DNA of 64,000 nt from a virus. Below the pieces are notes generated by a model. It searched no databases and was not told the DNA's origin. It saw nothing but the letters and a program-made list of their open reading frames with translations. Numbering within the stretch: position 1 is the first letter of the stretch; every line of letters begins with the position of its first letter. The position numbers and the translations under genes were made by a program. Shown here in pieces: positions 31,509 through 58,512 of the stretch. The stretch is taken from the IMG/VR virus record IMGVR_UViG_3300043399_000297, positions 1 through 64,000 of that record; one strand, 5' to 3'.

Positions 31509-31524
31509 CCGTCTTTTTAGATAA

Positions 31525-31532: not shown

Positions 31533-31553
31533 TATTATCAAAAGAGTAAAACT

Positions 31554-34934: not shown

Positions 34935-34942
34935 GATAAATA
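34935..34942 (+). promoter_or_regulatory. Late promoter octamer GATAAATA abutting the giant gene
   Basis: It lies directly after the gene 6 stop, with only 6 nt between octamer and ATG and no Shine-Dalgarno sequence. A transcript starting at the T4 distance would begin within a base of the ATG. Confidence 0.6.
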
Positions 34943-34948
34943 TGATAT

Positions 34949-37900
34949 ATGGCTAGAATCAGAACACTAAACTTTTTACCTGAAGTTTTTCAAACCCCAA
35001 CCAACAGCCAATTTTTGGCAGCTACACTTGATCAGATAGTAAGTGAGCCTAATACTGTTAAGCAACAAGGCTATATCGGCAGTAAGTTAGGTTATGGAGT
35101 GAATGCTCTCGACTACTATGTTACTGAACCAACTAAAACCCGAGTTGACTATCAGTTAGATCCAAGCGTTGTTTTCACAAAGCCCAATGAAACTATTGCA
35201 CAAGATTTTATCACATATCCCGGTATACTTGACGCATTAAAATTGCAGGGAAGCATCACTGATGATAACAGTGAGCTTTTCCAAAGTCAATTTTATTCTT
35301 GGGACAGCTTTGTTGATCTGGACAAGTTGGTTAACTATCAAGAATATTATTGGTTGCCAGAAGGTCCACCTAGTGTTTCTGTTTCTCCCGGATTAGTATA
35401 TTCAGTTGAAGAATACATCGTAACAGATTATGACAATCAATATGGAATTAACGAGAAGACAGCACAGAATAGTGGTCCGTTAAATCCAACATTAACGTTA
35501 TTGCGCGGCGGATCATATACCTTTTCTGTTAATCAAAACAGTCAGTTCTTTATTCAAACTTTGCCGGGCACTAGCGGATATAGCCCCATTCAGCCTAACA
35601 TCCCTACACGAGAAGTATATGGAGTAGAAAACAATGGCGCGTCAACAGGATTTGTAACATTTGATGTTCCCTTAAAAGATGCACAAGACGAATATGATTT
35701 CCCGGGTAATAATATAGTAGATTTAATTTGCACTACTCCGTTTAGTCAGGTCAATGGTCAAATACTAGGCACGTTTACTGATCCAGCGACCGGTGTAACA
35801 TATAATGGATTGAGCGACATTGACGGCATTACCGGTATCGATGGTTTACGAATTATGTTCTATAACACCGGTATCTCAAATGAAGTAGGATATATCAATT
35901 CATATTACGGTGAGACTTCATATGACGTAAATGATGATTATTTTACTTCTCCATTGACAGTAGAAATAAGTTCTACCACTAATAGTGGTTCATATCTAAC
36001 TCTTGGAACAGGGTATACCACTGATCAGTTAATCGTTAATCAAACTATTACTTTTGATACTCCTACACTCGGCGGGCTATCACAAAATGTAGTTTATTTT
36101 GTAAAAGAAATATTAAATTCCACAGACTTTACAATCAGTGAATATATTGAAGGCCCTGCTCTCAGCGTAAATGATGATGCTGGAACAATGATTGCTAACA
36201 TTAATCAAGGACAATATCAACAGGGATTTTATAGCACAGTAAATGATAACTTCTATCGCGTACAATTAGTAGGAACTGGCCCGAATCCTACAATTCGTTT
36301 ATTACCAGATGGCACTATCCCCACTAATCAAAAGATAACACCACAATTCGGTGTTACTTATATTAATCGTCCTTTCTATCGCAATGTAAACGGTGTAATT
36401 GGGTTAATTCCTATTATTACTGCACCATTAGATGTGTTATACTATCAAGATGGCACTAACCCAAATAAAGTTGGGGAAATTCGTTTAGTTGACACTAACG
36501 CAGACAATTATATTAATGTCGATACTCAGATTATCGGCAAAGTAAATTATACTAGTCCAAACGGTGTTGCATTTACAAACGGATTAAAGATAATATTTCA
36601 AGGTAATATTTTCCCTAGTAGATATTTAAATCAAGAATATTATGTCGAGGGAGTTGGAACTAGTATTGAATTGGTTCCTGTATTAAGTCTAGAGTGCCCT
36701 GAGAAGTTTACAATTGGAGAATATATTCCCTGGGATATGTTTGGATTTGACGCAGGCCCCTGGGACATTAGTTTAAATATTCCTGTTTTACCTGACTATA
36801 TTACTATTGCAAGAAACAGCATTAACAAAAATGCCTGGTCGCGCAGCAATCGTTGGTTCCATACTGATATCATCACTCAGACGGCAAACTACAATAATAA
36901 TCCAGACATTTTAACTAGGTATGCAACACTAGAGAACAAGGCGAAAAGGCCAATCATAGAGTTCTACCCTAACATCAAATTGTTTGATAGCGGATCTGTT
37001 GGTAAAAACGCAGTTGATTTCTTCGACACACGAACAACAGATGCTTTTAGTGAGGTTGCGGGATTATATAATTATTATCCTGACGTAGAAGTTTATACAA
37101 AAAATACAGCAGTAATTGACAGCACAATAACTAGCCCTGTATCATCAAGCAGTTTGATTGTTGGTAAGACATATGTTATTACCAGTAAGGGCACGACAAA
37201 CTGGAATACGGCTGCCGGGACAACAGGCTTTTATTATGTAGAAGGGCAAATATTTGTTTGTGAGTCTACTAGTGTTGGAACAGGAACAGCTACTGAACTA
37301 GCATATGGGACAACTATTACCATACCCACAGCAGATATTAATGGTACATTCCAAGAAGGAATGTATGTTGCAGATTATAATAATGTACTTCCTGTTAACA
37401 CACAACTCGATAACATACAAATTGTAGGGTCAGATACTATATTAACCGTTTCCTGGGATCAACCTCAAAATGTTGATACTACTACTACGGTTATTGTAGG
37501 ATCAGATAGCACAGTAAATGCATACGCAGTATATCCGGGAGCAAGAATTGTTTTTGCTAATGATAGTGATCTACAAGTAAGAAATAAAATCTATGTTGTA
37601 GATTATGCAACAATTGGAACAAGTTCACAGCCTATTATTGTATTAAGTCCTGCTGAAGATAGTATGCCATTACCTGATGAAATGATTGCAGTTAATAGAG
37701 GGTATAATTATCAAGGTAAAAGTTTTTACTATAATGGTATTATGTGGGATGAAGCGCAATTAAAAATTGATGTTAATCAACCTCCCAAGTTTGATGTGTT
37801 TGATAACAATAATATAAGTTTCGGTGACACTGATGTTTATAATAGCAGCACCTTCAAGGGATCAACATTATTTGCCTATCAGATAGGTGATGGTCCTGAT

Positions 37901-40900
37901 GATAGTATTCTTGGTTTCCCTATCAAGTATAGCTCAGTTGCTACAATCGGTGATATTGAGTTTGACGTTACACTAAACAGTCAAACATTTAATTATGTCA
38001 GAGAATTCAATTCAATTAATCAGCGCATTAATACTGGTTATGTACACGATTATAATAATGACCTAACTTACGATAGATTGATTGGTTGGGAAACTGCTAT
38101 TGCGCCAAGCACTCAATATCAAGTATTTAATTTTGACTATAAGATCACTACACCCAACAATATCTTAAAGATCGATATTCCAATGATTGATCCTATCCCA
38201 TATGGGCAAGTGGGTTGGCCAACTATTCAAGTATATTACAATAACAAATACGTTGATAGTATTAATGGTTCATATACCGTTACAGTCGAGGATAATGTAA
38301 CATTTGTTCAGTTGAACACACCTCCAATTGTAGACACGGTAGTGCAAGTATTATTGTTAAGTAATGAAACTAGCGCAAATAGTTATTATACTATTCCTAT
38401 CAATTTGTCTAACAATCCACTAAACAACGATATCACCGACGTAAAGTTGGGTGATATTCGTATGCAATATATGGATATGTTTATCAACGCTCCTAATACT
38501 ACAGGAGATGTATTCGGTAAGAATAACTATAGAGATTGTGGCGATCTTGTTCCATATGGCACAAAAATAATTCAGAATAGCGCAAGTCTAGTATTACCCG
38601 GCTTATTTTTACGTAAGCAGAATAATAATTTGTTCAATGCATTATTGTACAATAGCAGAGAATATATCAATTATAAGCAATTGTTAGTCGACACCGTTCA
38701 AAATACTGATTATGATAGACGTTATAGTCCCGCGCAAATACTAGATGATGCTGTCGATCAAATCTCAGCAGCAAGAAGCGAGATTAATTCGTTCTTCTGG
38801 TCAGATATGTTACCTAGCAAGACGCCGTTTAGAAGTAACACATATATCTTTAATAGCAACTTAGATACTACTCGTTATCCACTGAGCCACGTGTATAATT
38901 TTGAAAGTGCTAACTATGATGGTGTATTAGTATACATTACTAGAGAAGTAAACAACAATTATGTAACAAAACAGTTGATTCGTAATGTTGATTATACTAT
39001 AGATCAAGAAAGCCCAACAGTTGTAGTAACACTCGACTTAGTGCCGGGAGACTATATTACGGTTAATGAATATAATCAGACATATGGATCATATGTTCCC
39101 AATACTCCAAGTAAATTAGGATTGTACCCATTATACATTCCTGAGGTAATATTGGACAGTGATTATATTACTCCGACTTATTTCATTCTAGGTCACGATG
39201 GCAGCTATACCAAACTCTATGGCGATTATATTCCAGAGTTCGATATACTGACTGATTTTAGAGATCAGGTATTATTAGAATTTGAACAACGAATTTATAA
39301 TAATTGCAAGTTAAGCACCGAAGTACCTATTAGAATCTATGAAGTATTGCCTGGCTTCTTTAGAGAAAGCACTTACACCTATAACGAATATCTAGAGATG
39401 TACTCAAGTAGTTTCTTAAATTGGGTAGGACAAAATAGATTAGATTACAAGACACAATATTTCAATAGAAATAATGAATTCACATATAACTATACGAATT
39501 CAAGCAACAAGTTGAATCGTATGCCAATTCAGCAGGGCAATTTCAGAGGTGTCTACGAGTATTTCTATGATACATCTACTCCTAATTTAACACCTTGGCA
39601 AATGCTTGGCTTTAGTAATATGCCAACTTGGTGGGTTGATAGATATGGTCCCGCTCCATATACTAGTGGCAATGAAATACTTTGGAATGATTTAGAGCAG
39701 GGTTATATCTATAATAACGGCGATGGATATATTGATAGTTTGTTTGCTCGTCCTGGATTATCGAATATAATTCCAGTAGACCAAGATGGTAATTTATTAA
39801 GCCCGTTGTATAGTATTGTTGCTGACTACAACCCAAGTACGTTCCAAAAGGATTGGAAGGTAGGAGATGATGGTCCTGTAGAATTCAGCTATCGTCGTAG
39901 CTCAAGTTATCCATTCGATGTAATTAGAATATTTGCATTGACGCGCCCCGCAGAATTATACAATCTAGGTGTTGACTTGGATAACTACAAGTACAATGAA
40001 GAATTCAATCAATATTTGGTTAACGATAGAAGCCATCTTGTCATAAGTGACATTGAAGTCTATGGTAACGGGACAGCTAAGACAAGCTATATCAATTGGA
40101 TCGTTGATTATCAAAAGCAAGTAGGTGTAGATGCTACAACTGAAATTTCTACATTACTTGACAACTTAGATGTACGATTGGTATACAGATTAGCTGGCTT
40201 CAGCGATAAAACATTATTGCAGTTTTATGTAGAAAAGTCAAGTGCAAACACAACAGACAGTGCATTATTGATTCCTGACGAGAGCTATAGTATATTACTA
40301 TACGACAACCAACCGTTTGAGCAATTAATGTATTCTAGCGTTATTGTTCAGCTTAATAATGACGGCACGTTTAGTATATACGGTAACGCTCAGAACTTTG
40401 CGTATTTCACTACATATAAACCAACTACTAATTCTAAAATAGAAAATTATGAAGTCGGTAACGTTAAAGTAACAGTCAGTGTTGATCACACTACTGAAGA
40501 ACAACTAGTGCCATATGGCACTAAGTTTTATACTGCCCAAGAAGTAGCACAATTCTTGATGAACTATGATGCATATCTACAAGATAAGGGTATGCAGTTT
40601 ACTTCACAGATTTATGGAACAGAAATTAATTTTATATTAATGATTCAAGAGTTCTTATACTGGATTCAGACTGGGTGGGAAAACGGAAGCATTATTACAT
40701 TAAATCCTTCAGCAACAGATATCGTCATTGAGAAAGATGGTAATGTTGTTCAACCATTGACATTGCAACAGCAGAACTTTATATTGAATCAGGATCTATA
40801 TCCTATTCAATTAAACAATCTATGTGTTATACGCGATGAGAACAACTTTAAGGTGCATACTTTAAATCAGGGTGATAGTATGAGCTATGCCCAGTTTAAC

Positions 40901-43900
40901 ATTGGCAACATCGAACAAGCTGTTGTATTCGACAATGTAACATTGTTTAACGATTTGATATATAATACCACAACCGGATTAAGACAGAATAGAATTTATC
41001 TACGAGGTGCAAAGACTGCTGAATGGAATGGCACTATTAATGCCTGGGGCTTTATTTTAAATCAGGACAATATAAAAGAATGGTCAAGATATGTAAAATA
41101 TCCTAAGGGTATTATTGTAAAATATAAGAACAAATATTGGACTGCATTAACTACTGTTGAACCCAATAATCAGTTCGTTGAACAGCAGTGGAAGATTATC
41201 GATTATCAAGATATTCAAAAAGGGTTGTTACCAAACGCAGCTAATCGTGCATATGAAAGCACACTATATTACAACAGTGACAAGGCTAATCTTGAACAGG
41301 ATGCAGATTTATTGAGCTTTAGCTTGATTGGATATCGCCCTAGAGATTATCTAGCTGTCGCAGATTTGACAGACATTACCCAAGTCAATGTATATAAGAA
41401 TTTGATTCGCAATAAGGGAACAAAGAACGCTACATATGCCTTCAAGGGCGCCAATCTTCCCCAGGGAGGAATCGATTACACAGTCTATGAAAATTGGGCA
41501 ATTAAGACAGGTGAATATGGAGGAGTACTTAACGAGAACTTTGTAGAGTTCAAACTAGATCAACCGTCATTGACCGGTAATCCAACTATCGTATCATTAA
41601 CAAATGGCACTCCAACAGTAGGTTCTCAGCAAGAAGTTCCATTGTATGATTTATTCAACTATGGAAGATATGTTACTGATCCCAATGTCTTGAATACATT
41701 AGATACAACTGATAATGATATTTTATATCCGACGGCAGGTTATGTCAACTACAATGATGTTAGAATGAGTTCATTCTATTACGCAGGATTACCTAACAGC
41801 GTAGATAAATCAGGAACATTAATACCTATTAATGATTTCTATGTAAGAGATTATGTTTGGTTAGCTAATTATAAAGAAACTTGGCAGGTATATACTTGGA
41901 AACCGATTGGACAAGTGTTACAAGTAAGGGGCAATTTAAATGGTACTACTGTAGTTACCTTTGCAGAACCGCACAATCTAAAGAAACTAGATTCACTGTC
42001 TATAATTAATTTCGCTAATAACGTTAACGGTTACTATATTATCACTGAGGTAATAAATCTATATGAAGTAGAAATCAATCTGTCTATACCCAATAGAACT
42101 ATTAATGCACAGATACAGGGTACTGGAATTGGTTTAACCTTCACTTCGCAAAGAGTCACTAAGCCCGGCGACATTAGTAATCTAGACTTAACACAAAGTG
42201 AATTCAGCAAAAACACTGTTTGGGTTGATGAGAATACTGATGGTAACTGGGCAGTATATCGCAAGGGATTAAACTATAATTTAAATGCAAGCATCACAAA
42301 AGAGTCAAGTAGTAACTTCGGCTCAAGTGTTGCTTTCACTAACGTAGGTGATTATCTAATAGGTGATAGTAATCTTGGTGAAGTATATAGATATTCTATT
42401 AATAATGATGGGACATACCAGGTAACAGAAACATTATCTGGTGACACAAGCTTTGGTTCATCAATTGTTTATGCAACAAGTAAACCAATATATGCAATTA
42501 CTGAACCGACTAGTGCAAACCCCAAAGTACAGATTTATGTAATTAATACTAATACCGCACTGACAGACGATTATCTACTAGTTCAAACAATAGATGCACC
42601 AATTAGTATTACTGATTGGGGAAGCAGCGTTGCAATCAGTAACGATGGTAACTATCTGTTCATTAGAGATGTTGGTAATACACAGTTCTATGTCTATGCA
42701 AGACAACATCTTCCATTAAATGCGGGATATTTCGTATCCGGCGAAACATATGAGATTACTGAGCTTGGTGATACAGACTTTACTGCGATCGGCGCAATTG
42801 AAAATAAAGTTGGCATAATATTTGTTGCAACTGGCATAGGAACTGGTACTGGTTCTGCTACCCAGATATCCTATAAGTATGCTAATGTCATTGACGGTTC
42901 GTCAATTTATAATATTGGTGATAATTTTGGATTCGATATCTCAACAAATGATGACGCTAGTTCTGTTGTTATAACTGCACCTAATTTTGATCAAGTCAGT
43001 GGTGTTACTGATTGGGGCAGTGCAACTGTTTACCAAAAGACACAGCAAACATTCGAAGCACAATTTACGTCAAATGAGAATACGCCCCAATTCTTTGATT
43101 TGATTTGGTCCCCAAATAGTATTAATAAAACAGTGCTGTCTACTAATAGTGCAGGTAATATAATTACACTCAACAATACAAGCGCATTAACTGTTAATGA
43201 TCCTATTATCTTCTATGGTGGAGGATTAGAGGGAACAAATATCAACGGTTATAAAGTATATTATATCAATAGCATAAGCGGAAGTAATATCACTATTAAA
43301 ACATCAAGAAGTTCTACTACGCCGGTGACTTTAGCTACTGAGGTAACAGTTAATGCAGATGCTGCTATTACTAATGTTCCATTGTTTGTTTATAGAAATG
43401 GCACATTAGTTGATGACAGTAACTATGGTGTTATTAATAGTCAATTAGTATATACTACAGTATTAAACGCCGGCGACATTATTAATGTTCAGGGTAGCCA
43501 GTATAATGATGTACAAACATTTAATTCATCAAGAGACGATAGAATTAACATTCAGTTTGGTTATAGCGTTGATAATGCATTGAAGGGTTCAGAAATCTTA
43601 ATCGGTTCTCCTTATGAAATCAATGACGAAAATCAAGAGGGACAAGTTTATAGATATACTAACCTAGGCGCTAAGATTGGTATTATTATTGCAGAAAACG
43701 AATGCAATATTACAAGTGACTGTGCATTTTTATTAAATGGATATAGTGTTTATGCTACAGCAGGTGATACTGCTGTTGACGTAGCAAACAATATTAATAC
43801 TAGCAAAATACCTAATGTTCAGGCATCTTCAGTTAACAACAAATTGATGATTGAAATCTTAAATGAAAATATGTCTATCGTTAATAGTAAGTTGCAAATT

Positions 43901-46900
43901 ACAGTAGTAGACAAAACTGTTTTAGAAGATTTGGGTATTACATTATATACAAATACGCAAGTTATTTCTTGCCCTCATAAAGAGGGTCCTACTCAGTTTG
44001 GTAAAAAGATCAAGTTCAATGAGTTTGGTTCAGCAGCGATCGGCGCCCCAGTTGGTACTCGTTATCAAGCTACTACTTTCGACTTCACAGATGATGAAAA
44101 TCTTCATAATGATACAGTGTTTGACAATAATGCTACACGCTTTATTGATCAATGGCCTAACGCCGGCGCAGTATATATGTTTGACTTGTTGGCTAACTAT
44201 ACTAATGACACAGTTGATCCCGGTAAGTTTGCTTATGCTCAGCCTGTCAATAGCGATAGCGAATTGTTTGGAAATAGTCCATATTATGGTATAGCAATTG
44301 ATTTTAACGAGTATAATGTAATAGTAGGTGCTCCTAATTATCTACCGTTTATTGATAGTGGTCAGGCAACTGTATACACTAACTACACTGGTGTCAGAGA
44401 TTGGAGTGAATATAGACAGTCAAGTGCAATAGTTGATGTTAGTAAGATACAGGACACTCAGTTGTTCAGCAACTTAACTAACAACACACTAGTAAATCTT
44501 GATTATATGGATCCCTTGCAAGGCAAACTATTAGGCGTAGTAAGAGAAAATATTGATTTCGTAAGTAAAGTTGATCCAGCCTATTATAATAGTGATAGTT
44601 CTCCGTTAACAGGAAAAGTTTGGGGAGCGGATAATATTGGTGAAATTTGGTTTAACACAGAAAATGTTAGATTTATTAATTATCATCAAAATGATGTAGT
44701 ATACAACAGTAAGTATTGGGGAACATTATTCCCCGGTAGCGATGTTGCTATGTACACCTGGGTTATAAGTGACGTTCCCCCGTCAAATTACCCTGGACCC
44801 GGCATACCATATGACTTTAATTTATATTCAGTTGGCGGAACACTTAATGCAAGCAATGTTGTAGTACCTGTATACTACTTCTGGGTACGCAATTCAGGAA
44901 TTGTTACACAGAAAAGAAATAAGACACTAAGCGATATTACATTAGCTCAATATGTTGCAAACCCTCAGAATTCTGGAATTGCATATATGGCACCTATACT
45001 ACCAAATACATTTGCATTGTATAATAGTGGTCAATATATAAATGCAGATGATACTGTGTTCCACTTGGGATATGCTAATGGCACGAGTGATGATGTTTCA
45101 CACAGTGAATACGCATTAATAAGAGAAAATTTTGAAGATGATTTCTTGCCGGGATTACCGTTAACTGTTAATACATCTCACAATTTAGCACAGCACGGAT
45201 TATATCCTGCAATATCAAATGAAGAACCATATTCACTATATGCGAGAATGCTAGACAGCTTAAGTGGTTGCACTTTCAACACTGACCCTGAGCAGCTAGC
45301 TGGTCAAGTTGTACCTGATCCGTTCTTACCAATTAATTATCAAAGTGGTATATTAGTAAGACCTAGACAGAGCTTCTTCTATGATAGATTGTTGGCACTA
45401 AAGAATTATATCACATATGCCAATGAAGTGTTAATGAATTATCCTATCACTGAATTGAAGCCAGACTTGTATTTCTTATTCACTAGCGGTGAATATTATA
45501 ATACAGCAGACTATTGGGAATACACTGATTGGTATTATCCAGGTTATAACAGTGCCACGAAGCCTACATTGCAAGTTCGTGAATATGCAGACTTGTCTGG
45601 GTTAAATGTTGCAGTAAACACTATTGTTAAGGTACTTACAAACGGAGCCGGACTAAATGAATTCTATCGTTATGATGGACAAGATGTTTGGACAAGAGTA
45701 TACTTGCAAAACGGTACAATACAGTTCAAGTCAAGTTTATATGACTATAGTGCAAATAAGATAGGTTTCGGAGGTGACTTCTTTGACACTGCTACCTTTG
45801 ATAATTATCCAAGCACAGAAACACGTTATATTATACGTGCGTTGAATGAGCAGATTTATACTGAAGACTTATTGCCTTATCGTAACAAGAGTTTGATATT
45901 ATTGTTTGAATACATTCAATCTGAAACTATTGAATCTCAGAATTATTTACCGTGGCTTAATAAAACAAGCTTGATGGATGTATCACATATCATACGCGAA
46001 CTAAAACCATATGAAGTATTCAAGAGTGACAATCAAGTGTTCCTCGAGGGTTATATTAATGAAGTAAAACCCTACCACGTGGTTATCAAAGATTTCTTAT
46101 TCAAGTATACCGGAACCGAAGAATACAACTTGTCAAATCTTACTGACTTTGATGTTCCGGCAACATATAATGAAAATTATAGAAAATATATTAGTCCTCA
46201 ACTAGTGTATTCAACTCCTAATAATGAATATGAGTATGAACTTAATAATGATATTTGGAATACAGCTCCATACTATCAGTATTATAATAATAGGGGAATG
46301 ACATTAGATGGTCAGCCCGAGTATTTGATTACTAGACTTTCAACATATGTATCAATAGGTGACAACTATCTTGTGGTAGATAACTCAGCTGGCTTCCCTA
46401 TTAACGGAACTATAACCATTGATGAAGAAATTATTAGTTATGCTTATGTTGATCGTGCATACAATATACTATATGGTCTAGTAAGAGGTTTACAGGGCAC
46501 AAGACAAGCTACCCACCTTCCGGGCAGCGAAATCTATATGGATCTTCCCCCGATTGTAGTGTTAGATGGTGGCAGAAATTATGTGAACCCACCCTCAATA
46601 AAATGCGTATATGATTCTGCATTCCCTGAACCAATTATACCGGCCATACTAGAGCCTATTATGGCAGCAGGTACGTTGATAGGAGTTGACGTAGTAGAGC
46701 CAGGCTATGGTTATATGGCACAGCCCACTATTGAAATTGCCCCGTCAAGTGAAATATATTTTTCACAAACAGCAATTAACTCACTGCTTCACACTATCAA
46801 TCTATCTAATGTTAATTTGTATACCGGTGACATTGTAAGATTCAAGGCAGGGACAAATGGAGTTGCGCCGACTAAGTTGGTAGATGGCGAATGGTATTAT

Positions 46901-49900
46901 GTCAACGTATTAGAAAGTGTCCCATCTTATATCATTGCATTGTATTCTAATTATTCTGATGCTATCAAAGACCACGATAGAATTGAAATTGCAGTAAATG
47001 GAACGTCATCGGACATGGCATTGTTGCCCGGGGCAAAGGCATATGCAATTACGTCAAGCTCTCCTACTAGAGAGAATAATATTAAGCTTAAGTTTGACAG
47101 AACAACATATACATCACAAGTATTAGACTGGAAAGAAAGTTCTTACTATAGTGCATATTTTGCAGGCAAATATTATCAACCTGAATCCTTAGCAAGCTCT
47201 AGTTATACCTTAGAAAATACAATGCCTAACATCGGTGATCTACTTGCTAGTGCTAGCGGTGTAGTATTTGAAATTGCTGAGGTAAATGACGATCAATATA
47301 TCGATTGGTCATCATATATTAGATATGTCGCTGAAACTTCAAGTGCCAATAATAGTATTAGACTAATTCCGCAAGATAACAACAATGATCCATTAAATCC
47401 TGAGGTAAATAATTCAGGAACTACAGTAGGTTTCTATAAGAATATGCCTATTAAGTTTGTGGGCGCGGTAATAGGTAACTTAGTAGATAGCACAACTTAC
47501 TATGTTAGTGAGATATTAAGCGAAATTGAATTTACTGTTAGTGAATCTATCGATGGTCCTGTATTTGCATTAACAAATGGTTCTTGGCCAGATAATAGCA
47601 CACTGTTGAAGTGCTATACCGGTAATATCAATAGCACAACTATACTCACTGTAAACTATCCTAGCATACTAAATGTCACGAACACCACTAAAACAATTAA
47701 CAGTATTACGGTACCATTAACTTCAATTGGTACGGGCGGTACAATTGGTTTTTATCCTACACTTCCATTATTCTTTACAAGCAATGGAAATAACAGTGTG
47801 TTTGGAAACATAGTAGAGAACAGACCTTATTATGTAAACACTATTATAGATAATGAGAACTTTACTATTTCTGAAAGTGAAGATGTAATTTCTACTACAG
47901 TAACCGAAACAAATCAAACAACTGATACGGTTACGGTTGATTCTACTGAAAACTTTAATATTAATGATCCTATTATCTTTAATAATTTTGTATTTACAGC
48001 CGGAGACTTTGTAATAGGACAAACCTATACTATATTAACAGTTGGAACTACAGACTATACAAGCATAGGATCAATATCAAATGTTGTAGGAACCACCTTC
48101 ACTGCTACTGGAGTTGGTAGTGGTACTGGCACAGCATCTTCTAACTTGTTCGGTACTATTGAGTCTGGTACCCTTTATTGTGTAAACGAAATTGTTAGTA
48201 GCACTGAACTCAAGATTTCTACAAAAGCTAACTTTGATGTATATGCATTGAACGATCAAATAGGTACGGCTACACTAACCGATCAATCAAACACGGTAGC
48301 ACTAACGACGGCTGAAGGGTCAATGTATGTCAATGTTTCTCTGCCAGTAAGCCCTGGCCAAATTGACGGACAGAAATTCAGTTTTTATAAAACATCAGGA
48401 CAATATGTAGAATTGAGCGGCAGCGTAAGCAATCTAATTGAAACTGATATTAACGCTACAATTAGTAGTGTGGATAGAGTTGCATTAGCATTCAACACTG
48501 ATATGACTAATTTTTATGTCAATATGCCAATCGAAGTCTCAGTAAATGTTGGTGGATTGGTGACAGGAACACCTTATTATATTACCGAATATTCAGGAGA
48601 ATTAATCCCTGATCCAGATCCTGAAAATGTAGGTAAATATATTAATAGACCAAACATTCAGGTTACTGTATCAAATACTAGTGATATAGAAAATGTCCTA
48701 ACTTGCGATACTACTGAGAGTTTATTCGTAGGTATGCCAATTGTATTTTCTGGAGTAGGATTAGGAGGAATAACGATTGGTCAACAATATTTTGTAAGTT
48801 CAATTAATGATAGCACCCGTTTTACTATTGCATCAACGAAAGAATCTACGACAACAGTAACACAAGTTGATTCAATTACTCTCAATATAACAGTGAATGA
48901 TACCTCTATCTTTAATGTCGGCGATGGCGTAATGTTTAGAGGAAGTATAGTAGGCGGGCAATTAGATTCAACGACAACATATTATGTTGAAACTATTGGG
49001 GTCAATACTATTAAAGTTACTGATACCAAGTATTCAAATGGAACATTGGGAGCGCCAATAGATCCGGGCACTGGTACTGGTAATTTTACTATTGCTAACA
49101 TCGTAGTTCTTACTGCTGCGTCGGGAACAATGATTGGTACTGGTGATCCTTATATTAAACTTTCCAGCACACTATCACCTAGTACGCCTGTCGCACTAAC
49201 TGACGATAACAGCGGATCATCAAAGATGATTCAATATCCTGATCCACTTGGTTCCTATCCTACATTCTCAATATCATATCTGTTGGGAGGATATAGAGTA
49301 TTAATTATTAATTCAAGCAGCGGTTTTGCAATTAATAATACTATAACTATACCGGGCACTGATGTAGGAGGTTCAAGCCCTGCTAACGATATTACATTAA
49401 TTGTAAATCAAATTAATACGACCGGCGAAATTCTTGATGTAATTGCTAATGGTACTGTGCCTGTAACAAGTAATCAATATTATCTACAAGTTCGTTCGCC
49501 TAATACACTAGCAGTATATAGTGATCCATTAATGGATATTCCAGTAAGTTATAATGATTTTGATTATGTGGGCTTCACTAAAGTAGGCGTTTCGCAAGTT
49601 TCTAGCATTGGTAATTATATCACCGTCACTGACTCAAGTGTGTTTGCAGAGAACGATGAAGTCATATTCACTGGAACAAGCTTAGGTAATATTGTAATAG
49701 GCAAATCTTATTACATTTATTATATCTTCAGTCCCACAGTTGTTATAGTAAGCGAAACCCCTTATGGTCCAATGTTTGACCCAGGTAATGGAACAGGTAG
49801 TGCAAGTGATTTGACTATGGCAAAAGCTGGAAGCTTTTGCGTACTTCCTGAACCATTCTACTTCAATCAATCAATTGTTAGATATAATAATAGACTTTAT

Positions 49901-52900
49901 GTTTGCGTTGTTTCAAATAATGACAATACATTTGTTCTCGGTAAGTGGGAACCGATCGGCAGCGATTATCCATTGCTCAATGCATTAGATAGAGCAGAAG
50001 GTTATTATCAGCCCACTGTCAATATGCCGGGCCGTGATCTAACACAATTGTTCGAAGGAATTACATACCCCAATCCTATTGTAAGAGGCAATAAGTTTGA
50101 ACCCGATCAGCAATATGATATCGATACTATCATAATTGATAGTCCGTTCTACCCAACAAACGTAGACATTTCAAGCGTCATATACAACAATGGAATATAT
50201 TTAGCAAGTGCTAATCTACCCAACTATAGCGCAATAATTATTAGTTTGGACGGCGATACTTGGGGCATAGGTAAACTAACAGAGTTTAATATTGATACTA
50301 CTGATATAATATGTCTAAATGGAAATTATATAATCACATCTACTAATGTTGTAACTCCTGTGTTCAAGAGTGTAGATGGGATAAACTGGTCAGTAACCGG
50401 CGGCTATATTCCATATGGTGTCTATGATGAATATGGTGTTCCTGTAGTAACCAAACCAATTGGCACAGTAGGACTATCACTTAATGCGATAACATATTAT
50501 AACGGTAAGTATATTGCAGCAGGAAATAATATTGTAAACAGTGATGACTTGTATACTTGGAGAGCATTGACTCAGTTTGAAACTGCGTTTGACATTAATC
50601 TATATGATATAGCAAGTGTTAATATTCCTGGATTCGTCGGCGTCGTTTCGGTTGGTTCTGGTAAGCGATATAGTTATGAGAACGGATTTACAGAATTAGT
50701 AGATACTGATATCGTAGCCTATAGCAATGATGGTGTTAACTATTCCCGTTCCAACAGTTTTACCAACAAAGCATTGTATGGAGTAACTAGCGATTCAAAT
50801 ACTATTGTTGTAGTAGGTGAAGCTGGCGTAATATATTATAGTTTAAATGGTGCAAATTATTTAGGTGTTAATGAAGTGGGTGTCACTTCCATTAATGCAG
50901 CTACTAATCAAATCAATGTAAACAATACCGCTGGATTTAATGTCAATGACACTGTTCAGTTTACTGGCTCCTTTGGAACAATAACTGCTTACACCACTTA
51001 CTATATCAAAACTATTGATTCATCTACGCAAATTACAATTTCTGAAACATTAGCTGGTACTACTAAACAATTAGTAGACGTTACTGCTGGTAATTTTATA
51101 ATTGGTCAAACTTATATCATTACAAGTGTAGGGACAACTAACTTCATTGCTATAGGTGCAAGTAGTAATACAGTTGGTGTAACATTTACTGCTACTGGTA
51201 TCGGCACCGGCGACGGTACAGCATCAATCGTAATTAATGGTGTAATAGGTGGCACAATACCTGAGCAAACATTAATGAATTACTATGATAGTCTAGATCC
51301 TACTCCTAGTAACCTTAATAAGGTTTGCTATGCAAACGGTATCTTCTTTGCAGTAGGCGATAACGGAACAGTGAGAACATCAAGCGATGGCATTGTTTGG
51401 ACTACTCAAACAACAGGTACTACAGAAAATCTCACGAGCGTAAGTTATGTTGACAATAGTAAGTTTGTTATTGCTGGTGACAACAATATAGTATTGTTTA
51501 CTGAAGATAATGGGTTGACTTATACATCTAATGTTGTCTTCGAAGTCGCAGCACCTATCTATACTATAAAGGGCGCCGACTTCCCATATGGATATGGTCC
51601 TGAAGAGTTAGTACCGGGCAACATTGTTGATAACTTGCAGATGATTGTCAACACGAGACCCGGCACTAACTGGCCCGGTCCCGAATATGGACACACTGGC
51701 TTCAACGTAGTATCGGTAGAAGTAATTCCATCTCAGCAATATCAAACTATGTTTAGCTTTAAGAACATAGTAGAAACTCCGGCGCAAGTTAGACTACAAG
51801 TAATTAATGGGTCTACATATTTAGGTACTACTTTATATCCTACTGAGTATACTATTGACTGGGTAAACAAAATAATTACACTTAATGAACCATTAAACTT
51901 TTTCCCAATAAAAGATATATTAAGAATCGATGTATATGAAGTAGGCAACGGTGATCAATTAGTTAAAGCTAATACTGACACTGATCCTATTCGTGTAAAT
52001 CCAGAAACAATGTTTACTGAGATTTTTGTAAACTGCGACTACAATCAACCAATCTTCTTGGGAAGTGGTGTTATTAAAACTGGAACAAGTAGTGTAGTTG
52101 TGCGTGCATTTGAAACTAACGAAATCACTGACAGAATCACTTGCGATGATGTTTCACAGTTCACGCTCAACACCGGTATTACTTTTCAGGGACTACCGTT
52201 CGGAGGCCTTGAAGAAAATACAAACTACTACGTAAAAAGTATTAGTTACGCAACCAACTCAATTACTGTTTCTCTTAGCTATAATCCAGTTACTGGCTTA
52301 GCTGGACCAACTGTAGAATTGACTACAGCAACTGGTGAGATGTATGCTAATATACAAAATGGCAATGGAGTTCCCTGGACTGATCCAATTGTATATCACA
52401 ATGGAAACAAATTAGTATTGGGAACAACCGGATTAGTCACGAGAACAAAAGCGAGCAATAACGCATTAACGACAAATACAACTGCTGGTTTAATAGTGGG
52501 TACTCCTATTAGTTTCTGTGAATGTATATTTGGTGGAATCATCGAACCATTCGTCACATATTATATTGCAACTATCGTTGATGACAATGAGTTCACTATC
52601 AGCGCGACACAAGGTGGTCCAATATTACCACTTAATGATTCAACTGGTGGAACTACATTTATTACAAATGATTATGCGTTTGGTATTCAACCAGATGGTA
52701 TTTCAGCTAAAATTATGTTCCCTGTTCCAACTTATACTAATAATACTGATTATATAGTTTACTCATTGTTAGGTGAAACAGCACCAGAACAATATGGATA
52801 TAGTATACCTGAAACTCAATATTTTGTTGGCAACGGAGCAACGTCTCAGTTCAATTTAGATAACTTTGTAGGTGAGAATAATCCCAATAATGCAATCGTA

Positions 52901-55207
52901 GAGGTAGATGGTCTTAGACTAACGGCAAGTGACTACGTAATAAACTCTATTGCAAACACAATCTTGTTTGCAAGTCCACCGGCTAACGGTTCTAATATCA
53001 GCGTCACAACATATAATGATACTAAGCAGCAATATCTAACTAGTCAATACCAGTTAGCAGGAAACACTGTTTCTCCGCTAACACTGACTGTGGGATCAAC
53101 TACGCACTCGATTGGCACGTTTGATCAAAACTTGCCCGCTGTTCAAACATTCGATGAAAACGCACCTAGTGTCGTGTTGTTTGACCAAAATCTAAACTAC
53201 CTAACGTTACTTGCGCCTGACACTACAAGTTCTCTCAACATTAATGATAATGTAGTATTCAGTGAACCTACTATAGGTGGAATTGTAGCAGGAAGAACTT
53301 ATTATGTTACGCAAATTATTGACAGTGTAAGTTTTGTAGTTTCTGAAACAGTAGGCGGAGATCCCATAACATTAAATGTCTACGCAGCCGGTGATTTTGT
53401 GATTGGTCAAACTTATGTTATAGAGACATTAGGAAGTACTAATTTTACATTGATCGGCGCGGCTAGCAATACAGTAGGATTGAGCTTTACTGCAACTGGT
53501 ATAGGATCAGGTACAGGAACTGCCTATGTTCAAACTGTTATAGGTTCGATGCCAATTAATTCTTCGTCGTTGCAAGTTTGTAAGATTGTCAACGTTGATA
53601 ACAATATTGTTGCTCCTATATCAATTGAGGTATCTAATACTACGAGCGGGACAAATCAAATTACAGTATCAACTGGATTTAACACAACTGGATTCTTGCC
53701 TAATCAAACCGTTATATTTAAGGGAACTGCATTCGGGGGAATCTACACAGACGGAACTGTGTATTTTGTTGACACTGTAGTAAGCTCTACGAAGTTCACT
53801 ATTAAGGATTATGACGGTAATCAAATAACATTAAGTACCGATAGTGGATCAATGTCAGTAGAAGTTGGAGGAACCCCAACTACGAGAATAACTACATTAT
53901 CTGCAAACGATTTCTATGACAATATTGTTGTTAGAATAGACGGCGTGCTTGGATCAACACAATTAAATAATAATATATTCTATGTAAAGGTGATTACACC
54001 TTATGTGTTCGACATTTACACAGAACCTTATACCGACGCACAATATGGAATTAACTATCCGGTTACAAATGTGTCCACTTATATAAGCGGCGGATATGTT
54101 TGGGTAGCTGGATCGTTCTTCTTAGCCACTACTATTGCAACAGAAACAACTACGTCAGGTAACTTTATCACAGTAGATGATGCGAGTGAATTAATAGTAG
54201 GAACTCCTGTATACTTTAACAAACCCGGAAATCTAAACGGTGATGTATTGTTGGGTGGACTTGTTCAAGGCACAGAATATTATGTGTTGGATGTTAACTA
54301 TACATTTAATAAGTTTACTATATCCGACGTTCGTTATGGTGAAGAGTTTGTGTTGACAAGTGATATTGGAGCAATGGATGTTATTCAGTGGTCTCAAACT
54401 AATGTTAACAGGTTGTATGTAACTGTTAATGGTTATAGAGTACCTTCAAGTAACTTAAGATTGAATCCATACAATGAAGTAAGTATTTTAACTGAAATCT
54501 TACCAGGTGATCAAGTTATAATCACTAGTATGATTCCTACTGCGACACCAAACGAACAAATTTATATGAATGTAGTCGATAAAGAAGGCGAGCAGATAAT
54601 TTATAACTGCAATTCGCATACTAGAACTTGGCTTACTTACCCAATATATGAATTAAGTGATACGATTCAAGTATACGATGTAACTAAATTAACTAATACT
54701 GTAGTTCAGAATGTGTCTTGCCCCGAGATTGACAATGGGTATTACTATATCGGTCTTACAGCAGACAAACGAATTATATCATCAGTGACAGTGTACAATA
54801 ACACAACCAACTCAGTAATACCATCTGAATATTATGAAATTGTATTAGTAAGTATTGCTCCTCAAGTTAAAATTCTTGGTGGTAATTACATTAATGAAGG
54901 TGATAGTTTGACTATCACTATACTTGAAGGTAATACTATTATGATTAACGGAGAACAAATTAGATTTACAACAGTAGATGTAGAAAACAACACACTAAAT
55001 GGGTTAGAAAGAGGTTGCAACGGAACAGCAATGCAATCTGTAATTCCTAAGTACTTAGATGTGTTTGGCTTGTTAACTACTAACATACTTTATAATGAAT
55101 ACTATGATAAAACTTGGAATTCATATGTGTATAATCAAGTAGAAGGAGATCCATTGCAGATTAGCAATACTATCCCGGCTATATTCTTAAATACTGACCT
55201 ACCGTAA
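34949..55207 (+). CDS. Giant baseplate/tail structural protein, 6752 residues (gp7 position)
   Basis: One uninterrupted 20.3-kb frame. The N-terminus (MARIRTLNFLPEVFQTPTNS, then SWDSFVDLDKLVNYQEYYWL) follows gene 6, where T4 has gene 7, but clear gp7 homology is not visible. Conserved landmarks include FLEGYINEVKPYHVVIKDFL near residue 3705. Two propeller-like regions appear: FG-GAP/integrin-like repeats near 2450-3150 and BNR-like repeats (GVIYYSLNGANY, GTVRTSSDGIVWTTQ) near 5070-5530. About 16 copies of a 55-80-residue beta module (I-T/V-V-x-x-T-x-x-F... Y-Y-V-x-x-I... F-T-I-S-E) are concentrated after residue 3940. Five copies of a second, 47-residue module interrupt other domains. Probably a long host-range or baseplate periphery protein. 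No Shine-Dalgarno sequence precedes the ATG. Confidence 0.85.
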   Translation: MARIRTLNFLPEVFQTPTNSQFLAATLDQIVSEPNTVKQQGYIGSKLGYGVNALDYYVTEPTKTRVDYQLDPSVVFTKPNETIAQDFITYPGILDALKLQGSITDDNSELFQSQFYSWDSFVDLDKLVNYQEYYWLPEGPPSVSVSPGLVYSVEEYIVTDYDNQYGINEKTAQNSGPLNPTLTLLRGGSYTFSVNQNSQFFIQTLPGTSGYSPIQPNIPTREVYGVENNGASTGFVTFDVPLKDAQDEYDFPGNNIVDLICTTPFSQVNGQILGTFTDPATGVTYNGLSDIDGITGIDGLRIMFYNTGISNEVGYINSYYGETSYDVNDDYFTSPLTVEISSTTNSGSYLTLGTGYTTDQLIVNQTITFDTPTLGGLSQNVVYFVKEILNSTDFTISEYIEGPALSVNDDAGTMIANINQGQYQQGFYSTVNDNFYRVQLVGTGPNPTIRLLPDGTIPTNQKITPQFGVTYINRPFYRNVNGVIGLIPIITAPLDVLYYQDGTNPNKVGEIRLVDTNADNYINVDTQIIGKVNYTSPNGVAFTNGLKIIFQGNIFPSRYLNQEYYVEGVGTSIELVPVLSLECPEKFTIGEYIPWDMFGFDAGPWDISLNIPVLPDYITIARNSINKNAWSRSNRWFHTDIITQTANYNNNPDILTRYATLENKAKRPIIEFYPNIKLFDSGSVGKNAVDFFDTRTTDAFSEVAGLYNYYPDVEVYTKNTAVIDSTITSPVSSSSLIVGKTYVITSKGTTNWNTAAGTTGFYYVEGQIFVCESTSVGTGTATELAYGTTITIPTADINGTFQEGMYVADYNNVLPVNTQLDNIQIVGSDTILTVSWDQPQNVDTTTTVIVGSDSTVNAYAVYPGARIVFANDSDLQVRNKIYVVDYATIGTSSQPIIVLSPAEDSMPLPDEMIAVNRGYNYQGKSFYYNGIMWDEAQLKIDVNQPPKFDVFDNNNISFGDTDVYNSSTFKGSTLFAYQIGDGPDDSILGFPIKYSSVATIGDIEFDVTLNSQTFNYVREFNSINQRINTGYVHDYNNDLTYDRLIGWETAIAPSTQYQVFNFDYKITTPNNILKIDIPMIDPIPYGQVGWPTIQVYYNNKYVDSINGSYTVTVEDNVTFVQLNTPPIVDTVVQVLLLSNETSANSYYTIPINLSNNPLNNDITDVKLGDIRMQYMDMFINAPNTTGDVFGKNNYRDCGDLVPYGTKIIQNSASLVLPGLFLRKQNNNLFNALLYNSREYINYKQLLVDTVQNTDYDRRYSPAQILDDAVDQISAARSEINSFFWSDMLPSKTPFRSNTYIFNSNLDTTRYPLSHVYNFESANYDGVLVYITREVNNNYVTKQLIRNVDYTIDQESPTVVVTLDLVPGDYITVNEYNQTYGSYVPNTPSKLGLYPLYIPEVILDSDYITPTYFILGHDGSYTKLYGDYIPEFDILTDFRDQVLLEFEQRIYNNCKLSTEVPIRIYEVLPGFFRESTYTYNEYLEMYSSSFLNWVGQNRLDYKTQYFNRNNEFTYNYTNSSNKLNRMPIQQGNFRGVYEYFYDTSTPNLTPWQMLGFSNMPTWWVDRYGPAPYTSGNEILWNDLEQGYIYNNGDGYIDSLFARPGLSNIIPVDQDGNLLSPLYSIVADYNPSTFQKDWKVGDDGPVEFSYRRSSSYPFDVIRIFALTRPAELYNLGVDLDNYKYNEEFNQYLVNDRSHLVISDIEVYGNGTAKTSYINWIVDYQKQVGVDATTEISTLLDNLDVRLVYRLAGFSDKTLLQFYVEKSSANTTDSALLIPDESYSILLYDNQPFEQLMYSSVIVQLNNDGTFSIYGNAQNFAYFTTYKPTTNSKIENYEVGNVKVTVSVDHTTEEQLVPYGTKFYTAQEVAQFLMNYDAYLQDKGMQFTSQIYGTEINFILMIQEFLYWIQTGWENGSIITLNPSATDIVIEKDGNVVQPLTLQQQNFILNQDLYPIQLNNLCVIRDENNFKVHTLNQGDSMSYAQFNIGNIEQAVVFDNVTLFNDLIYNTTTGLRQNRIYLRGAKTAEWNGTINAWGFILNQDNIKEWSRYVKYPKGIIVKYKNKYWTALTTVEPNNQFVEQQWKIIDYQDIQKGLLPNAANRAYESTLYYNSDKANLEQDADLLSFSLIGYRPRDYLAVADLTDITQVNVYKNLIRNKGTKNATYAFKGANLPQGGIDYTVYENWAIKTGEYGGVLNENFVEFKLDQPSLTGNPTIVSLTNGTPTVGSQQEVPLYDLFNYGRYVTDPNVLNTLDTTDNDILYPTAGYVNYNDVRMSSFYYAGLPNSVDKSGTLIPINDFYVRDYVWLANYKETWQVYTWKPIGQVLQVRGNLNGTTVVTFAEPHNLKKLDSLSIINFANNVNGYYIITEVINLYEVEINLSIPNRTINAQIQGTGIGLTFTSQRVTKPGDISNLDLTQSEFSKNTVWVDENTDGNWAVYRKGLNYNLNASITKESSSNFGSSVAFTNVGDYLIGDSNLGEVYRYSINNDGTYQVTETLSGDTSFGSSIVYATSKPIYAITEPTSANPKVQIYVINTNTALTDDYLLVQTIDAPISITDWGSSVAISNDGNYLFIRDVGNTQFYVYARQHLPLNAGYFVSGETYEITELGDTDFTAIGAIENKVGIIFVATGIGTGTGSATQISYKYANVIDGSSIYNIGDNFGFDISTNDDASSVVITAPNFDQVSGVTDWGSATVYQKTQQTFEAQFTSNENTPQFFDLIWSPNSINKTVLSTNSAGNIITLNNTSALTVNDPIIFYGGGLEGTNINGYKVYYINSISGSNITIKTSRSSTTPVTLATEVTVNADAAITNVPLFVYRNGTLVDDSNYGVINSQLVYTTVLNAGDIINVQGSQYNDVQTFNSSRDDRINIQFGYSVDNALKGSEILIGSPYEINDENQEGQVYRYTNLGAKIGIIIAENECNITSDCAFLLNGYSVYATAGDTAVDVANNINTSKIPNVQASSVNNKLMIEILNENMSIVNSKLQITVVDKTVLEDLGITLYTNTQVISCPHKEGPTQFGKKIKFNEFGSAAIGAPVGTRYQATTFDFTDDENLHNDTVFDNNATRFIDQWPNAGAVYMFDLLANYTNDTVDPGKFAYAQPVNSDSELFGNSPYYGIAIDFNEYNVIVGAPNYLPFIDSGQATVYTNYTGVRDWSEYRQSSAIVDVSKIQDTQLFSNLTNNTLVNLDYMDPLQGKLLGVVRENIDFVSKVDPAYYNSDSSPLTGKVWGADNIGEIWFNTENVRFINYHQNDVVYNSKYWGTLFPGSDVAMYTWVISDVPPSNYPGPGIPYDFNLYSVGGTLNASNVVVPVYYFWVRNSGIVTQKRNKTLSDITLAQYVANPQNSGIAYMAPILPNTFALYNSGQYINADDTVFHLGYANGTSDDVSHSEYALIRENFEDDFLPGLPLTVNTSHNLAQHGLYPAISNEEPYSLYARMLDSLSGCTFNTDPEQLAGQVVPDPFLPINYQSGILVRPRQSFFYDRLLALKNYITYANEVLMNYPITELKPDLYFLFTSGEYYNTADYWEYTDWYYPGYNSATKPTLQVREYADLSGLNVAVNTIVKVLTNGAGLNEFYRYDGQDVWTRVYLQNGTIQFKSSLYDYSANKIGFGGDFFDTATFDNYPSTETRYIIRALNEQIYTEDLLPYRNKSLILLFEYIQSETIESQNYLPWLNKTSLMDVSHIIRELKPYEVFKSDNQVFLEGYINEVKPYHVVIKDFLFKYTGTEEYNLSNLTDFDVPATYNENYRKYISPQLVYSTPNNEYEYELNNDIWNTAPYYQYYNNRGMTLDGQPEYLITRLSTYVSIGDNYLVVDNSAGFPINGTITIDEEIISYAYVDRAYNILYGLVRGLQGTRQATHLPGSEIYMDLPPIVVLDGGRNYVNPPSIKCVYDSAFPEPIIPAILEPIMAAGTLIGVDVVEPGYGYMAQPTIEIAPSSEIYFSQTAINSLLHTINLSNVNLYTGDIVRFKAGTNGVAPTKLVDGEWYYVNVLESVPSYIIALYSNYSDAIKDHDRIEIAVNGTSSDMALLPGAKAYAITSSSPTRENNIKLKFDRTTYTSQVLDWKESSYYSAYFAGKYYQPESLASSSYTLENTMPNIGDLLASASGVVFEIAEVNDDQYIDWSSYIRYVAETSSANNSIRLIPQDNNNDPLNPEVNNSGTTVGFYKNMPIKFVGAVIGNLVDSTTYYVSEILSEIEFTVSESIDGPVFALTNGSWPDNSTLLKCYTGNINSTTILTVNYPSILNVTNTTKTINSITVPLTSIGTGGTIGFYPTLPLFFTSNGNNSVFGNIVENRPYYVNTIIDNENFTISESEDVISTTVTETNQTTDTVTVDSTENFNINDPIIFNNFVFTAGDFVIGQTYTILTVGTTDYTSIGSISNVVGTTFTATGVGSGTGTASSNLFGTIESGTLYCVNEIVSSTELKISTKANFDVYALNDQIGTATLTDQSNTVALTTAEGSMYVNVSLPVSPGQIDGQKFSFYKTSGQYVELSGSVSNLIETDINATISSVDRVALAFNTDMTNFYVNMPIEVSVNVGGLVTGTPYYITEYSGELIPDPDPENVGKYINRPNIQVTVSNTSDIENVLTCDTTESLFVGMPIVFSGVGLGGITIGQQYFVSSINDSTRFTIASTKESTTTVTQVDSITLNITVNDTSIFNVGDGVMFRGSIVGGQLDSTTTYYVETIGVNTIKVTDTKYSNGTLGAPIDPGTGTGNFTIANIVVLTAASGTMIGTGDPYIKLSSTLSPSTPVALTDDNSGSSKMIQYPDPLGSYPTFSISYLLGGYRVLIINSSSGFAINNTITIPGTDVGGSSPANDITLIVNQINTTGEILDVIANGTVPVTSNQYYLQVRSPNTLAVYSDPLMDIPVSYNDFDYVGFTKVGVSQVSSIGNYITVTDSSVFAENDEVIFTGTSLGNIVIGKSYYIYYIFSPTVVIVSETPYGPMFDPGNGTGSASDLTMAKAGSFCVLPEPFYFNQSIVRYNNRLYVCVVSNNDNTFVLGKWEPIGSDYPLLNALDRAEGYYQPTVNMPGRDLTQLFEGITYPNPIVRGNKFEPDQQYDIDTIIIDSPFYPTNVDISSVIYNNGIYLASANLPNYSAIIISLDGDTWGIGKLTEFNIDTTDIICLNGNYIITSTNVVTPVFKSVDGINWSVTGGYIPYGVYDEYGVPVVTKPIGTVGLSLNAITYYNGKYIAAGNNIVNSDDLYTWRALTQFETAFDINLYDIASVNIPGFVGVVSVGSGKRYSYENGFTELVDTDIVAYSNDGVNYSRSNSFTNKALYGVTSDSNTIVVVGEAGVIYYSLNGANYLGVNEVGVTSINAATNQINVNNTAGFNVNDTVQFTGSFGTITAYTTYYIKTIDSSTQITISETLAGTTKQLVDVTAGNFIIGQTYIITSVGTTNFIAIGASSNTVGVTFTATGIGTGDGTASIVINGVIGGTIPEQTLMNYYDSLDPTPSNLNKVCYANGIFFAVGDNGTVRTSSDGIVWTTQTTGTTENLTSVSYVDNSKFVIAGDNNIVLFTEDNGLTYTSNVVFEVAAPIYTIKGADFPYGYGPEELVPGNIVDNLQMIVNTRPGTNWPGPEYGHTGFNVVSVEVIPSQQYQTMFSFKNIVETPAQVRLQVINGSTYLGTTLYPTEYTIDWVNKIITLNEPLNFFPIKDILRIDVYEVGNGDQLVKANTDTDPIRVNPETMFTEIFVNCDYNQPIFLGSGVIKTGTSSVVVRAFETNEITDRITCDDVSQFTLNTGITFQGLPFGGLEENTNYYVKSISYATNSITVSLSYNPVTGLAGPTVELTTATGEMYANIQNGNGVPWTDPIVYHNGNKLVLGTTGLVTRTKASNNALTTNTTAGLIVGTPISFCECIFGGIIEPFVTYYIATIVDDNEFTISATQGGPILPLNDSTGGTTFITNDYAFGIQPDGISAKIMFPVPTYTNNTDYIVYSLLGETAPEQYGYSIPETQYFVGNGATSQFNLDNFVGENNPNNAIVEVDGLRLTASDYVINSIANTILFASPPANGSNISVTTYNDTKQQYLTSQYQLAGNTVSPLTLTVGSTTHSIGTFDQNLPAVQTFDENAPSVVLFDQNLNYLTLLAPDTTSSLNINDNVVFSEPTIGGIVAGRTYYVTQIIDSVSFVVSETVGGDPITLNVYAAGDFVIGQTYVIETLGSTNFTLIGAASNTVGLSFTATGIGSGTGTAYVQTVIGSMPINSSSLQVCKIVNVDNNIVAPISIEVSNTTSGTNQITVSTGFNTTGFLPNQTVIFKGTAFGGIYTDGTVYFVDTVVSSTKFTIKDYDGNQITLSTDSGSMSVEVGGTPTTRITTLSANDFYDNIVVRIDGVLGSTQLNNNIFYVKVITPYVFDIYTEPYTDAQYGINYPVTNVSTYISGGYVWVAGSFFLATTIATETTTSGNFITVDDASELIVGTPVYFNKPGNLNGDVLLGGLVQGTEYYVLDVNYTFNKFTISDVRYGEEFVLTSDIGAMDVIQWSQTNVNRLYVTVNGYRVPSSNLRLNPYNEVSILTEILPGDQVIITSMIPTATPNEQIYMNVVDKEGEQIIYNCNSHTRTWLTYPIYELSDTIQVYDVTKLTNTVVQNVSCPEIDNGYYYIGLTADKRIISSVTVYNNTTNSVIPSEYYEIVLVSIAPQVKILGGNYINEGDSLTITILEGNTIMINGEQIRFTTVDVENNTLNGLERGCNGTAMQSVIPKYLDVFGLLTTNILYNEYYDKTWNSYVYNQVEGDPLQISNTIPAIFLNTDLP
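37151..37294 (+). repeat. Module B copy 1 (divergent)
   Basis: First copy of the 47-residue module, with LIVGKTYVITSKGTTNW at the start and GTGTATE at the end; the centre is the most divergent of the five. Confidence 0.65.
42722..42861 (+). repeat. Module B copy 2, inside the first propeller
   Basis: It reads AGYFVSGETYEITELG...FTAIGA...FVATGIGTGTGSA and interrupts the FG-GAP-like repeats between VYARQHLPL and ISYKYANVIDG. Confidence 0.75.
47996..48139 (+). repeat. Module B copy 3, inside a module A
   Basis: It reads AGDFVIGQTYTILTVG...YTSIGS...FTATGVGSGTGTA and splits one module A after NDPIIFNNFVF; that module resumes with LFGTIESGTLYCVNEI. Confidence 0.8.
51082..51226 (+). repeat. Module B copy 4, inside the second propeller
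   Basis: It reads AGNFIIGQTYIITSVG...FIAIGA...FTATGIGTGDGTA and, with the module A before it, separates two BNR-like propeller blades. Confidence 0.8.
53384..53524 (+). repeat. Module B copy 5, in a module A loop
   Basis: It reads AGDFVIGQTYVIETLG...FTLIGA...FTATGIGSGTGTA and sits between PITLNV and IGSMPINSS, the usual end of a module A. Confidence 0.8.
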
Positions 55208-55222: not shown

Positions 55223-55366
55223 ATGAAACGTAGCAAAATAGAAAATAATAAGCCTTCCTCTAATAGAAAACCAAACGAAGTGGGCGGATTTTATTTTTCT
55301 TCTGGAATTAAGATTTTTGACCCGAACACTCAAGAAGTTTTGGTTCAAAAAAGAGGGGATAGTTAA
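55223..55366 (+). CDS. Small protein, 47 residues, related to the next gene's N-terminus
   Basis: It starts MKRSKIENNKPSSNRKPNEV and contains GIKIFDPNTQEVLVQKRGDS. The motif K-I-F/Y-D-P-N-x-x-E-V-x-V-x-K also stands at residues 14-29 of the following 206-residue protein (LKIYDPNNGEVFVDKK), so the two share an element. TAATG overlap couples it to that gene. A late octamer 5 nt before the ATG suggests a leaderless mRNA. Probably a minor virion or assembly protein, by position only. Confidence 0.65.
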   Translation: MKRSKIENNKPSSNRKPNEVGGFYFSSGIKIFDPNTQEVLVQKRGDS

Positions 55367-58469: not shown

Positions 58470-58485
58470 GAAGACAAAATATTAT

Positions 58486-58493
58486 GATAAATA
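58486..58493 (+). promoter_or_regulatory. Late promoter octamer GATAAATA before tail fibre 2
   Basis: It ends 19 nt before the ATG; the predicted short leader contains CGGAG. Confidence 0.7.
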
Positions 58494-58512
58494 GATTTAA
58501 CGGAGTTATAAA

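Follow-up and report, generated by a model that had tools for sequence, protein, structure and literature searches.

In phage T4, the slot after gp6 holds gp7, a protein of 1,032 aa for which Pfam lists no carbohydrate-binding module (CBM) or propeller family. In annotated isolates of T4-related jumbo phages, the gene directly after gp6 codes for a far longer protein that is annotated as "virion structural protein" or "hypothetical protein". Those measured are PA5oct gp355 (3,857 aa), Atu_ph07 gp180 (4,449 aa), SCTP-2 gene 140 (3,807 aa), Phosso 294 (4,555 aa), CBB gp236 (3,340 aa), RaK2 gp465 (3,326 aa) and the Hallingskeid homologue (about 3,330 aa, or 3,337 when read from an earlier start). 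Two of these homologues, both shorter than the protein described here, are virion proteins by mass spectrometry: the record of PA5oct gp355 carries the annotation ESI-MS/MS, and CBB gp236 was recovered from virions through 21 unique peptides, which cover 7.72% of it, as given in passages of PMC5259590. For Atu_ph07, passages of PMC6102473 report 131 virion proteins, concentrated in clusters including CDS 170-215; gp180 falls in this range and is unnamed in those passages. A giant tail protein of a different architecture, a tape measure protein of 5,002 residues fused to RNA polymerase, is reported for P23-45 in the abstract of PMC10770324. No phage baseplate protein as large as the one analysed here was described in the parts of the literature that were searched, most subscription journals lying outside the scope.

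The window, a stretch of 64,000 nucleotides, belongs to a virus contig of 244,022 bases and contains an open reading frame at 34949-55207 (+) that starts with ATG and runs for 6,752 codons with 0 internal stops. The predicted product has 6,752 aa, 746 kDa and a pI of 4.2. The initial annotation, which had noted an uninterrupted frame of more than 20 kb right after gene 6, is thus confirmed in its coordinates, start and length. A stop-free run this long would arise at the base composition of the frame with a chance of about 10^-222, and GC is steady at all three codon positions along it. ARAGORN placed a tRNA-Phe at 34946-35027 (-), antisense over the start of the giant gene; an Rfam search for tRNAs there was negative, and the call was judged to be false.

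The genes around the frame are arranged in the style of T4-like baseplate genes. A baseplate wedge protein (23808-24125) and a hub/lysozyme (26962-30936) are followed by a gp25-type baseplate wedge protein (31005-31508, +; PF04965, E 2.7e-7; phrog_43) and a gp6-type baseplate wedge protein (31554-34934, +), which matches phrog_10646 ("baseplate wedge subunit") at E 3.9e-257 and also phrog_219, the T4 gp6 family, at E 1.2e-25. Downstream lie a gene for a 206-aa protein (55366-55986, +; phrog_11259, E 6.1e-68) and fibre-like genes (56001-59733), among them one for a fibre-like protein of 406 aa (58513-59733, +) with a weak match to Peptidase_G2, an autoproteolytic cleavage domain (E 1.8e-4, below cut-off). 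This order is not peculiar to the window. A gp6 relative was found immediately upstream of the giant homologue and on the same strand at 80 of 80 loci, the gap after the last aligned gp6 residue being 11-291 bp (median 23 bp), and gp25 was present in all 69 loci having room for it. The 206-aa neighbour was found at 29 of 38 loci, some loci ending before its position is reached. In Salicola phage SCTP-2, the giant homologue is directly preceded, in the gp6 position, by a gene for 3,096 aa (10633-19923).

The search with tblastn led us to a family that is already known, yet uncharacterised. The first 700 residues matched 16 phage records and residues 1350-2250 matched 60 of 50,697; the latter matches include PA5oct and its relatives, Atu_ph07, SCTP-2 and Phosso, together with six RaK2-like phages: RaK2, CBB, GAP32, 121Q, PBECO4 and Munch. 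The name RaK2-like follows PMC5259590 for the first five of these six. PHROG 10938 ("virion structural protein") matched four 1000-aa pieces of the giant protein (E 2.8e-63, 6.6e-105, 4.1e-22 and 7.7e-52) and none of the three C-terminal pieces. In IMG/VR, one scan returned 95 relatives and another at least 544 stretches; exact peptide patterns from the C-terminal 544 residues returned 0, these patterns having missed members in which that end exists. Among 48 IMG/VR relatives taken from the second scan, 34 had frames of at least 5,000 aa, including 26 of at least 6,000 aa, while 13 had frames of 4,297-4,994 aa and one a frame of 4,933 aa, some of the shorter ones probably being clipped by contig ends. 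The longest complete relative that was read reaches 6,796 aa. Such sizes had been called rare for phage tail proteins; the protein is indeed large but it is not unique, and it stands near the top of a continuum rather than as an outlier. It is a longer variant of the family: with the PHROG 10938 isolates it shares the slot after gp6 and a common core (residues 1-146, 514-723, about 864-2250 and 3150-3760), whereas the isolates measured have about 3,330-4,555 aa. After the core there follow about 3,000 residues in the window member and about 1,000 in PA5oct.

Most relatives keep residues 1-146, 514-723, most of 864-2250, and 3150-3760, with single blocks missing in some of them, as in one relative (L110) that ends early at a stop. 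In that relative (G026:C1:31700-43760) a single in-frame TGA stands at codon 2950 of the homologous frame, which stays open beyond it for 998 further codons, up to the contig end; the TGA may reflect a nonsense mutation, an error of sequencing or a gene that is split in two. A close clade of 17 relatives aligns over the whole length, mostly at a mean identity to the window of 0.3-0.7 per 125 residues; three insertions, near 4626-4750, 5376-5500 and 6126-6250, are poorly shared. The part that we call the arm (residues 4129-6490; 47333-54418, +) is conserved almost end to end, mean identity being 0.3-0.5 in most 125-residue blocks. In four pairs of sequences, dN/dS was 0.056, 0.082, 0.062 and 0.13 for the core and 0.09, 0.115, 0.087 and 0.139 for the arm, synonymous divergence being high in three of the four pairs. 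These ratios indicate that both halves of the protein are under strong purifying selection. The C-terminal end (residues 6380-6752; 54086-55204, +) is likewise conserved, with a mean column identity of 51% in an 18-row alignment. A loose terminal motif, composed once the sequences had been viewed, is present within the final 90 residues in 31 of 44 proteins and in 23 of 2,543 other 90-residue windows; the proteins without it include truncated frames as well as the most distant of the members.

The giant frame is therefore a real protein of a large tailed phage. That it might be an assembly chimera or a spurious frame has nothing in its favour except its size and the premature TGA of one relative after 2,950 codons, and we give it practically no credence. 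A chimera is excluded because 26 of the 48 relatives, among many independent ones that carry the homologous frame, have frames of at least 6,000 aa; a second contig, which may come from related samples, matches window positions 20661-39914 at 19,254 of 19,254 bases; and the dN/dS values likewise speak against it.

The N-terminal segment conserved in the family (residues 1-146; 34949-35386, +) was modelled at low pLDDT. The AlphaFold2 model of the N-terminus had a mean pLDDT of only 55.8, locally 70-89 in residues 149-518 (35393-36502, +), where it predicts a cupredoxin-like beta sandwich, interrupted by a beta module; VIA matched the sandwich to rusticyanin (Z 9.4, 98 residues, 3.0 A). No Foldseek match of this poor model reached E 0.001. 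For the main conserved core (residues 864-2250; 37538-41698, +), a model of residues 1100-2262 built from 96 sequences reached a mean pLDDT of 80.1 and had no PDB match in Foldseek at E 0.001. Neighbours in BFVD were the structural protein of Atu_ph07 and phage proteins that are uncharacterised. Profile searches of the PDB with the N-terminus, the second conserved core (residues 3150-3760; 44396-46228, +) and the C-terminal end gave weak, unrelated matches only. A YHYH domain (E 1.7e-12) was seen in one of the 25 members of the core alignment (window 37538-41698), and several homologues in BFVD go by the name of YHYH protein, which indicates that the core accepts other inserted domains.

Two kinds of domain recognised in the core point to adsorption. 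The first of three profile copies of the T7 gp17-type tail-fibre adaptor lies at residues 1294-1377 (38828-39079, +); the others are a weak T7-fibre-type copy at residues 5593-5664 (51725-51940, +; i-Evalue 0.005) and one at residues 5952-6024 (52802-53020, +; i-Evalue 1.9e-14). A CBM5/12-like carbohydrate-binding module was recognised by Pfam and VIA at residues 2039-2092 (41063-41224, +). Pfam found CBM5/12 in 13 of 25 members (best 3.8e-7), the window sequence itself scoring E 0.012, under the Pfam cut-off, with nothing at 0.05 in the family search; a profile search matched deacetylase DA1 at E 0.00097. The best VIA match of the adaptor region (71 residues, 2.4 A) and that of the CBM5/12 region to the receptor-binding complex of the phage Milano baseplate (45 residues, 1.1 A) both have Z 8.1, a level reachable by common arrangements. 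The VIA matches of residues 1292-1377 or so are to tail adaptors, N-termini of fibres and baseplate chains of phages (Carin 1, Kp9, T7, P1, phi812 and phiKZ), from which an adaptor fold of the T7 gp17 type is predicted; it is internal in the giant chain and not N-terminal as in T7 gp17-type fibres. Further VIA matches of about 2039-2087 were to the tail fibres of phages 7-7-1 and A-1(L) and to chitinases. With the Milano, 7-7-1 and A-1(L) domains the module shares a chitin-type binding fold of 44-47 residues at 1.1-1.9 A; those domains sit in separate fibre or receptor-binding chains, whereas the module of the window is embedded in the giant chain.

The modular beta repeats and two propeller-like regions seen by the initial annotation are both borne out, the propellers by way of the relatives. 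In residues 2530-3160 (42536-44428, +), FG-GAP_2 was found in 13 of 15 aligned members (best 1.2e-9), the match of the window itself (E 0.00079) being below the curated cut-off. Residues 4940-5560 (49766-51628, +) appear to form a Ycf48/BNR-type propeller with a beta module inserted between blades: DUF6242 was found in 8 of 18 members and PSII_BNR/Ycf48 in 4 of 18, and the best PDB profile matches were Ycf48 structures (E 0.0018-0.0076), while the window sequence alone gave no family match at 0.01. An 87-position beta module was matched by 18 stretches of the giant protein, 15 of them within the arm, and a 45-residue module by five copies, of which the arm holds three; neither repeat model had any match (0) in shuffled or reversed proteins. 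In the close clade (n=18 including the window), 17 members have 9 to 18 copies of the longer module and 1 to 7 of the shorter, with none of either listed for the remaining one (G052). This spread suggests that module gain and loss explain part of the length variation.

The initial annotation had further proposed that the protein replaces gp7. The position directly after gp6 holds at every one of the 80 loci; homology to gp7 found no backing in four profile comparisons. Other periphery or fibre proteins, which were also proposed to be replaced, may have been absorbed too, yet fibre-like genes still follow downstream (56001-59733). Three core regions aligned with five T4-type gp7 proteins by hhalign gave probabilities of 0.4, 0.1 and 0.1%. 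A 124-row profile of the N-terminus scored 11.8-18.3 against gp7, the 18.3 being against full-length gp7 without a matched control, and resembled the 9.3-14.4 obtained when the columns of one gp7 region were shuffled 30 times. The gp7 family phrog_964 had no match in the 244-kb record, a control search being positive in one genome. Finally, gp7 chains were absent among the matches listed by the fold searches, which is not decisive. Since no similarity was found, the replacement of gp7 follows from position only; the missing phrog_964 match makes it possible on the same ground. The giant protein, 6.5 times longer than T4 gp7, would thus fill the gp7 slot while any kinship with gp7 goes undetected at the sequence level. 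It might still be a true gp7 orthologue, diverged past recognition and enlarged by inserted modules, with a T4-like wedge function to which the modules would be decorative. The identical slot and the lack of another gp7 match in the record make this a possibility to be taken seriously, which the four comparisons without profile similarity and the fold searches without a listed gp7 chain nevertheless leave short of an even chance.

On balance, we favour the reading that the protein is a gene-6-anchored baseplate protein of a contractile-tailed jumbo phage that carries long carbohydrate-binding adsorption arms. The conserved part of about 3,750 residues would be attached to the baseplate wedge next to gp6, where T4 has gp7, and the other 3,000 or so residues would make up a long and stiff arm built from beta modules. 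Six chains round the baseplate, about 4.5 MDa in all, would grip host-surface glycans before contraction through the domains found along each of them: CBM5/12 for sugar binding, propellers and fibre adaptors. The protein probably forms long sugar-binding arms that aid the grip on the host. Indeed, the recognised domains are of tail-fibre and receptor-binding types, which fits the elongated adsorption device that had been suggested for it. The same domains would suit a protein of an adsorption fibre or fibre network that has no kinship with gp7 and simply happens to follow gene 6, the gp7 role being filled by another, unrecognised protein; a weak match to gp9/10_N, below cut-off, at 105993-106154 of the record hints at other baseplate genes elsewhere. 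The strict linkage to gp6 at all the loci and the strong conservation of the core across a wide group render such a fibre somewhat unlikely. A polyprotein, cut from one chain into separate baseplate and fibre proteins, is suggested by the size, by the clear split into core, propellers and arm, and by the weak Peptidase_G2-like match in the neighbour at 58513-59733, but relatives keep both termini and all blocks together, and we consider it improbable. Against the favoured reading of a gene-6-anchored baseplate protein with adsorption arms count the lack of sequence similarity to gp7, the poor model of residues 1-146, where contact with gp6 is likely, the CBM5/12 score of the window protein under the Pfam cut-off, and the modest Z of the two top VIA matches. 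Receptor-binding tips are often hypervariable, so the near end-to-end conservation of the arm also counts against its role in adsorption, as does its evolving only slightly faster than the core.

The "virion structural protein" after gp6 is hence no peculiarity of a single assembly: it is strongly conserved across a wide group of T4-related jumbo phages, and one lineage has lengthened the PHROG 10938 protein to 5,300-6,800 residues. It offers a concrete candidate for the occupant of the gp7 slot in RaK2-like and PA5oct-like phages, and also for the way in which these phages hold host sugars. Rather speculatively, and with more doubt than belief, one may picture a large, mostly uncultured lineage of aquatic jumbo phages that fuses the gene-7 wedge slot to a modular glycan-binding arm of about 3,000 residues. 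The arm would grow as beta modules of 87 and 45 residues are gained or lost, and six giant chains would take the place of both the wedge initiator and separate long fibres.

The 87-position module also occurs outside the giant protein. In the record to which the window belongs (L122, G000), ORFs of 940 aa (177333-180155, +) and 426 aa (180180-181460, +) carry two such modules each, with i-Evalues from 3.8e-25 to 1.6e-13, which indicates that the module is common to several proteins of one genome. The same phage has an ORF of 2,456 aa at 168128-175498 (+).
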